Assembly (NCBI GenBank): GCA_903821685.1
Contig: CAIJLW010000084.1
Coordinates: 1 to 64,000 of the forward strand
Direction of reading: 5' to 3'
DNA: 64,000 nucleotides
DNA from: an uncultured Sphingomonadales bacterium
GTDB lineage: Bacteria; Pseudomonadota; Alphaproteobacteria; Sphingomonadales; Sphingomonadaceae
Part shown: positions 24,074-25,714 of the stretch, piece after piece
How positions within the stretch are numbered: position 1 is the first letter of the stretch
Layout of the letters: each line of letters starts with the position of its first letter
Notes under the pieces: generated by a model
What the model was told of the DNA's origin: nothing
Databases searched by the model: none
What the model saw: the letters and a program-made list of their open reading frames with translations, nothing else
Translations under genes and position numbers: made by a program

Positions 24074-24103
24074 GAAGGGCGCTGGCAACGGCGCCCTTTT
24101 TTT
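24074..24103 (+). terminator. Rho-independent terminator after carD
   Basis: 8-bp stem AAGGGCGC / GCGCCCTT with an 8-base loop followed directly by a T-run of seven. Confidence 0.9.
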
Positions 24104-24167: not shown

Positions 24168-24512
24168 ATGGCTAAAGTAATCATCTGGTATGACGGGGTA
24201 TGTCCCCTGTGCATTCGCGAGGTTGCATTGATGCGTCGGCTTGATCGGCGCGGTGCCATCGACTTTCTGGATATAGCACCCACCGATGCGGTTTGCCCGC
24301 TTGACCGTCAGTTGATGCTCGCCCGCTTTCATGCCAGCGAAGATGGCATAATGCTGTCGGGTGCCGCCGCCTTCGCCGCCATGTGGCGGGCCATACCATT
24401 GCTAAAACCGCTTGGCTTAATTGCACGCAATGCCTTCGTTCTTGGACTTCTCGAACGGCTCTATAACCGCTTCCTCATCATCAGGCCGCGCCTGCAAAAA
24501 TTACTGGATTGA
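24168..24512 (+). CDS. DCC-family (DUF393) thiol-disulfide oxidoreductase-like protein
   Basis: A 114-residue protein opening with IIWYDGVCPLCIREV, the DxxCxxC motif that names the DCC (DUF393) family, thioredoxin-like small proteins of unclear redox role. A second Cys (DAVCPLDRQ) lies mid-protein and the C-terminal half is partly hydrophobic. Start at 24168 is supported by TAAGGAA. The next gene begins two bases after its stop, so this and the photolyase-type gene form an operon; DCC proteins are often near photolyase or cryptochrome genes, as far as I recall. Confidence 0.87.
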   Translation: MAKVIIWYDGVCPLCIREVALMRRLDRRGAIDFLDIAPTDAVCPLDRQLMLARFHASEDGIMLSGAAAFAAMWRAIPLLKPLGLIARNAFVLGLLERLYNRFLIIRPRLQKLLD

Positions 24513-24514
24513 AC

Positions 24515-25714
24515 ATGATCCCCGAAAGCTTCCCCGCGACGCGCGCTGCTGCGCTGGCTCGCCTCACGCACTTCGCGCCGCGCGCAGGTCAGGCTTATGC
24601 GTCCGGCCGCAATACTGACCCCGGACCAGACCAAGTGGGCGCCGTTTCGAAGCTGTCACCGTATTTGCGCTATCGCCTGATAACTGAGCAAGACGTCATT
24701 GGCGCGACATTGGGACGACACAGCCTTCCGGCTGCCGAGAAATATGTGCAGGAAGTATTGTGGCGCACATATTGGAAGGGCTGGCTTGAGATGCGTCCGT
24801 CGGTGTGGACGCAATTCCAACAAGAGCGCGACCACCAACGCGACAGCTTTCCCAACGCCCGCGCTATCCGCAGCGCAGAAGCTGGCGAAACAGGTATCGA
24901 AGGCTTTGACGATTGGGCGCGCGAATTGGTCGAGACCGGCTATTTGCATAACCACGCAAGAATGTGGTTTGCATCAATCTGGATCTTCACCCTGCGCCTG
25001 CCATGGGCCTTGGGCGCGGATTTCTTCCTGCGGCATTTGGTGGATGCAGACGCGGCAAGCAACACCTTATCATGGCGCTGGGTGGCTGGCTTGCAAACGG
25101 CTGGCAAGACGTACCTTGCGACTTCGGAAAACATCGCCCGCTTTACGAATGGCCGATTTGCACCAAAGGGCTTGGCGACCACAGCAACGATGCCCACGGA
25201 CATGGCTTCACCGGAGCTTCGGCCCTTGCCGCAAGCCACATTTTTCGACGCAAATAAGCCTGCATATCTGCTAATGACGCCGGAGGATTTGCACCCTGAG
25301 TCTGTCTTTGGCGCATCTACCAAAATCATAAGCACCGGCGTTTTACGAGACCCTGAAACCCTGTGGGGCAATAATGCCAGAGCCTTTGTCGAGGCCGCGA
25401 CCGAAGACGCTGTTGAACGCGTTGGCCAAGCGTTCAAATGCCCAACAACCGTGCTCTGTAACTTCGATACGGCGGCCCTGATTGCACAAGCACGCGCGGC
25501 AGGGGCAGAGCAAATAATCACACCCTACGCCCCAATCGGCCCAGTGGCCGATGCGCTGACCCGCATCGCTCCAATATTGGCCGCCGAAGGCGTTCCGTTA
25601 GGTCAAATCCGACGCGCTTGGGACGGAAATTTCTGGCCACTTGCAACGAAAGGCTTCTTCCCTTTCAAAGAACATATTCCAAAAATTCTTAAAGACATGG
25701 GCCTTTCGCGATAG
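24515..25714 (+). CDS. Photolyase/cryptochrome-type FAD-binding protein with inverted domain order
   Basis: A 399-residue protein. The FAD-binding domain of photolyases is at the N-terminus (about residues 45-215): LSPYLRYRLITEQDV, YVQEVLWRTYWKGWLEMRP, then GYLHNHARMWFASIW and LSWRWVAGLQTAGKTYLA. The usual N-terminal alpha/beta antenna domain is not in front of it. Instead about 190 residues follow, predicted alpha/beta (YLLMTPEDLHPES, CNFDTAALIAQARAAGAEQ, IITPYAPIGPVADAL, ATKGFFPFKEHIPKIL). I infer a rearranged or circularly permuted antenna-like domain. Whether it repairs DNA or senses light is unknown. The TTG at 24509 is an alternative start. Operon with the DCC gene. Confidence 0.75.
   Translation: MIPESFPATRAAALARLTHFAPRAGQAYASGRNTDPGPDQVGAVSKLSPYLRYRLITEQDVIGATLGRHSLPAAEKYVQEVLWRTYWKGWLEMRPSVWTQFQQERDHQRDSFPNARAIRSAEAGETGIEGFDDWARELVETGYLHNHARMWFASIWIFTLRLPWALGADFFLRHLVDADAASNTLSWRWVAGLQTAGKTYLATSENIARFTNGRFAPKGLATTATMPTDMASPELRPLPQATFFDANKPAYLLMTPEDLHPESVFGASTKIISTGVLRDPETLWGNNARAFVEAATEDAVERVGQAFKCPTTVLCNFDTAALIAQARAAGAEQIITPYAPIGPVADALTRIAPILAAEGVPLGQIRRAWDGNFWPLATKGFFPFKEHIPKILKDMGLSR

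Follow-up and report, generated by a model that had tools for sequence, protein, structure and literature searches.

A photolyase-like gene with inverted domain order, probably of the NewPHL class, next to a DCC thiol protein gene in a Sphingomonadales contig

The window analyzed here, a stretch of 64,000 nt from an uncultured Sphingomonadales bacterium (positions 1–64,000, forward strand, of contig CAIJLW010000084.1, assembly GCA_903821685.1), carries a gene for a small DCC1-like thiol protein followed by a gene for a photolyase-like flavoprotein, whose FAD (flavin adenine dinucleotide) domain precedes an alpha/beta domain. The features of this gene pair are the following:

24168..24512, + strand: DCC1-like thiol protein gene (114 aa, motif YDGVCPLC), from its match to PF04134
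24515..25714, + strand: putative NewPHL-type photolyase gene (399 aa), from PF03441, an AlphaFold2 model and relatives of the same length
24515..25201, + strand: FAD-binding catalytic domain (residues 1–229), from VIA-align comparison of the full model
25256..25711, + strand: predicted C-terminal antenna-type alpha/beta domain (residues ~248–399), from the domain model, Foldseek and VIA-align

The DCC gene runs from an ATG at 24168 to a TGA stop at 24510–24512, and the photolyase-like gene from an ATG at 24515, 2 bases past the DCC stop, to a stop at 25712–25714. The original prediction, made from the sequence alone, of a DxxCxxC thiol protein gene ending two bases before the photolyase-like gene was thus right in both coordinates and gap, and the two genes are probably co-translated. 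In Pfam searches, the 114-aa product fits the DCC1-like profile PF04134 nearly end to end (residues 6–110; E = 1.6e-20; 74.9 bits against a curated cut-off of 27.8) and contains the DxxCxxC motif; the 399-aa product matches PF03441 at residues 78–201 (E = 1.5e-20), with no match to the antenna domain PF00875.

The 399-aa protein was modelled with AlphaFold2, without templates, from an alignment of 56 full-length sequences (alignment A1, to which all residue counts out of 56 refer), giving a mean pLDDT (predicted local distance difference test) of 95.1 and a pTM (predicted template modelling score) of 0.92. VIA-align paired model residues 1–229 with residues ~170–470 of solved photolyases, and the full model aligned to chain residues 170–415 of 1iqr with Z 16.1 and a root-mean-square deviation (rmsd) of 3.0 over 217 aligned residues; likewise, phmmer paired residues 10–193 with residues 209–395 of the class I photolyase 1tez (E = 1.4e-16). 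The window protein does not show the ordinary class I order, because its FAD fold starts at residue 1 and the PF03441 match at residue 78. The FAD domain had been proposed to come first in the protein, at about residues 45–215; its position holds, whereas its extent does not, the fold being wider.

The phmmer alignment with 1owl served to place the active-site positions by hand, and these were then counted on A1. Nine of the 13 FAD-binding positions given for the 1owl enzyme (PMC9426592) are identical in the window protein (Y28, S45, L47, S48, R84, N146, D177, D179, and N183), and four deviate (V44, Y77, Y143, and S182); S48 occurs in 55 of the 56 sequences and the other eight identical residues in all of them. 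N183, the Asn near FAD, is paired with N386 of 1owl. Instead of a Trp triad there is a dyad, W187 and W164, both present in 56/56 sequences, with the distal Trp site occupied by L, F, V or another residue. No Fe-S (iron-sulfur) cysteines are conserved in A1, where the most Cys-rich column reaches 17/56. Also present in every sequence are E80, W83, M150, and W189, which we take to be the CPD (cyclobutane pyrimidine dimer)-pocket positions of class I photolyases. The window protein has in common with class I CPD photolyases the FAD fold, the CPD-pocket residues and two of the three triad tryptophans; unlike it, those enzymes have the antenna domain first and retain the distal Trp.

As anticipated in the original prediction, the sequence following the FAD domain is alpha/beta, with five strands in the model (250–254, 271–277, 311–314, 333–337, and 362–365), and the C-terminus is well formed, residues D370, W374, G380, and F382 being invariant in the 56 sequences. 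Residues 226–399 modelled by themselves gave a pLDDT of 91.3. A Foldseek search of the PDB with this domain model returned photolyases on top (best match 3umv_A, E = 4e-4), and 42 of the 50 matches listed were photolyase or cryptochrome chains; the eight remaining listed rows were TcdA, PH0823, a universal stress protein and a citrate lyase chain. In VIA-align, rows 1–13 were photolyases or cryptochromes (Z 11.4 to 9.8), including 1iqr (Z 11.4, rmsd 3.5, 147 aligned residues, chain residues 2–232), and the matching extended past the Rossmann core to residue 399. A profile of the domain compared with 37 ordinary antenna domains scored 33.4 (probability 62) and was colinear over strands 2–5, with strand 1 outside the alignment; the controls scored 15.1 (reversed profile) and 15.8 (best of 40 column shuffles). 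Because the isolated C-terminal domain best matches N-terminal antenna-type domains with the strand order unchanged, the model indicates that an antenna-type domain with the usual strand order sits after the FAD domain, and that it was moved as a whole. The change in domain order proposed originally is therefore borne out by the fold search of residues 226–399.

A scan of genome contigs confirmed at least 577 relatives, of which the best 80 were kept (counts out of 80 refer to these). The same full-length protein is found in 79 of them, the exception being L072, which is ended by the contig end. The frames of the relatives are 388–427 aa long, with 277 aa in L072, and that of L067 is without a stop at the contig end. 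Proteins of this order and length are found at 45–82% identity in Alphaproteobacteria, Microbacteriaceae and Thioalkalivibrio, and the record titles include, among others, Sphingomonadales, Caulobacteraceae, Beijerinckiaceae, Rhodobacteraceae, Microbacteriaceae, and Thioalkalivibrio. Some metagenome-assembled genomes with other labels, for instance cyanobacterium (L047) and Moraxellaceae (L052), group with alphaproteobacteria in the tree, perhaps because of mis-binning. Among 61 genomes (the window's own and 60 of relatives), 24 contain a long match (E = 9e-102 or lower). The genome of the window also has an ordinary photolyase on contig C13 (PF00875 plus PF03441) and a PF04244-type photolyase on C76, and a PF03441 search of this genome retrieved no third protein. 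Eight of the 150 plasmid records having a match span at least 80% of the query, whereas none of the 10 phage records does; the phage matches H41–H44 and H47–H50 (labelled Enterococcus, Staphylococcus, and Listeria) are photolyase-like at 26–28% identity and possibly host DNA. Separately, L008 (G004:C4:72795-73991) is otherwise full-length with one in-match TGA, which reflects either decay of this copy or an error in sequencing. In one genome the gene is present as two overlapping pieces on two contigs, L017 (G010:C84) and G010:C66 (query 1–303 and 164–398), which might be two gene copies or one gene split in assembly.

Proteins with inverted domain topology are already described under the name NewPHL, or short photolyase-like (PMC13274461, PMC9426592; here and below, statements on published classes refer to those portions of the cited papers that were available). 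NewPHLs (Emmerich et al., 2020, Nucleic Acids Res 48:12845) repair CPDs in single-stranded DNA, and the members named include D. shibae A8LJA9, M. mesophilicum M7YZC8, Erythrobacter litoralis Q2N8F4, and Rhodospirillum centenum B6IPR5 (PMC13274461). The D. shibae enzyme has a mere Trp dyad and loses ~90% of its radical pairs within nanoseconds (PMC8948257), and NewPHL is among the families having the conserved Asn near FAD N5 (PMC12083526). The window protein shares with the class the FAD domain first and the alpha/beta domain last, the Trp dyad, the Asn near FAD and the lack of Fe-S cysteines, as well as its occurrence in Alphaproteobacteria, Sphingomonadales included; compared by described features, we found no difference between them. 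In the founding paper, the C-terminal domain is reportedly seen to seal the FAD site, and NewPHLs are said to stand in for DASH enzymes.

Since the window protein displays every class feature that could be tested, we conclude, with a probability of roughly 0.93, that the gene encodes a NewPHL enzyme, with the helical FAD catalytic domain first and a Rossmann-like antenna-type domain last. The inversion is genuine, but the protein adds a further example to a known class and is not the unusual new system that had been suspected; of the light-sensing or repair role suggested for the protein, repair agrees with the function reported for NewPHLs and sensing was not upheld. By analogy with the published class, the protein would bind FAD, take up electrons through W187 and W164, bind a CPD of single-stranded DNA in the pocket with W83 and W189, and, driven by blue light, cleave the dimer through electron transfer from reduced FAD; the FAD site is probably sealed by the C-terminal domain. 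Our comparisons arrive by an independent route at the inverted photolyase order as a stable and widespread architecture, and at an antenna-type fold as the predicted fold of the domain that follows the FAD domain.

Using an iterated DCC profile, we found a DCC gene at 18 of the 80 loci, upstream and on the same strand in 17 and 1.5 kb downstream in L050. All but one of the upstream genes (16/17) lie within 30 bases of the start, with L051 at 387; L039 has just 250 bases upstream and is thus unable to reveal a DCC gene. With 17 of 80 loci, DCC was rejected as a fixed partner of the whole family, so that the coupling with a DCC protein envisaged originally does not extend to the homologs as a family-wide partner gene. 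In a tree of 78 rows, made up of the window and 77 loci (L039, L067, and L072, being short or truncated, were excluded), the DCC label changes 5 times versus a mean of 16.4 when shuffled, with starred branches forcing 2 changes, and all 18 labelled rows (17 loci plus the window) fall inside one group of 38 rows (Shimodaira-Hasegawa-like approximate likelihood ratio test 91; unstarred, quick method). By hand comparison, DCC is directly upstream on the same strand in 17 of the 24 genomes with a long match and elsewhere in the remaining seven; it is present in 10 of the 37 genomes without a long match (raw genome counts, kinship ignored), and no DCC match adjoins any of the weaker photolyase matches listed for the 61 genomes. 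These sequence comparisons indicate that the DCC pairing is confined to one mainly alphaproteobacterial branch. It is the only feature that we did not find described in the available portions of the papers searched, be it for NewPHLs or for the DCC1-like family; PMC8612252, in its available part, concerns heliorhodopsin neighbours. In that branch the DCC protein might be a dedicated redox partner holding the FAD of NewPHL reduced, thereby offsetting the poor photoreduction through the Trp dyad, a proposal that we regard as unlikely; if functional, the pairing would offer a clue to how the cell keeps a dyad photolyase reduced. DCC fusions were considered for two long open frames, in L062 and L050, but as the DCC domain is found at their end only, they were read as ordinary DCC genes in over-long frames.

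Several observations weigh against the assignment to NewPHL and the relocation of an antenna domain. The class was matched by features, with no NewPHL of proven activity in the alignment. In a Pfam profile search, PF00875 was found in just one of the 56 members (E = 0.014), while a short stretch matches PF04273 (BLH_phosphatase) in eight of them (best E = 8.7e-5), and a PDB profile search with the C-terminal domain returned 13 rows (ETV6 fusions, BdcA, and others) with no photolyase; judged from these searches, sequence comparison by itself neither detects nor decides the antenna identity of the domain. Furthermore, VIA-align of the C-terminal domain gives universal stress proteins Z values of up to 9.8, within 1 of most photolyase rows, although their alignments cover ~109 residues versus ~147 for photolyases; therefore it is the aligned length, and not Z alone, that separates them. 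The weak sequence signal and the Z values of the stress proteins favour an FAD photolyase domain fused to an unrelated Rossmann-like end domain, with no true antenna relocation. This possibility is disfavoured by both structure searches, headed by photolyases and matching to residue 399, and by a profile score far over those of the reversed and shuffled controls, and we consider it quite improbable.

The adjacent, probably co-translated DCC gene and the loss of the distal Trp, together with the poor photoreduction of Trp dyads (PMC8948257), could also be read as signs of a cryptochrome-like light sensor that signals through the thiol protein instead of repairing DNA. However, all 56 sequences keep both the CPD-pocket residues and the photolyase-type Asn N183, published NewPHLs repair CPDs (PMC13274461), and the DCC gene is upstream in only a minority of the loci, which makes a sensor very improbable. 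Reversed order is likewise known from SPL (Xu et al., 2021) and from picocyanobacterial Phr4/Phr5 and Phr6, which contain Fe-S cysteines; the Phr4/Phr6 (SPL) type is reported as the nearest relative of Phr7, a protein with an N-terminal FAD domain, a C-terminal Z-domain and no Fe-S cysteines (PMC9426592). An enzyme of the iron-sulfur Phr4/Phr6 type is nevertheless scarcely credible here, as the four cysteines retained by that type are not conserved in the window family. Finally, the idea that an ordinary photolyase gene had been rearranged locally or mis-assembled was ruled out, its probability being practically nil. Nothing was found in its favour: the full-length architecture is shared by nearly all relatives, across several taxa and a range of identities, and the genome of the window has its ordinary photolyase elsewhere.

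Apart from DCC, a second photolyase/cryptochrome-like gene of 508–523 aa lies directly downstream of the NewPHL-type gene, with a 4-base overlap, in 10 of the 80 loci (L037, L042, L043, L046, L051, L052, L053, L056, L060, and L065). In L052, the only one of the ten checked with Pfam, its product has PF00875 followed by PF03441, the normal order; in L051 and L052, the DCC, NewPHL-type and second photolyase-like genes are consecutive, and other loci have the second gene in place of DCC. These photolyase-like neighbours are consistent with a repair role. A PF04244 (6-4 type)-like gene is near in L041, L042, L049, L065, and L108 (checked with Pfam in L108, E = 3.7e-45), and a flavin amine-oxidase-like gene in L050, L084, L089, L103, L104, and L107 (L103 alone of the six was checked with Pfam: PF01593, E = 3.4e-24).

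A promoter scan of the upstream sequence found 0 matches, compared to 0.8 expected. Between carD and the DCC gene there is a GC-rich hairpin (24075–24098), which the scan assigned to the - strand (1 found versus 2.3 by chance); since a T run is also found 3′ of it on the + strand, this hairpin may end carD transcription.
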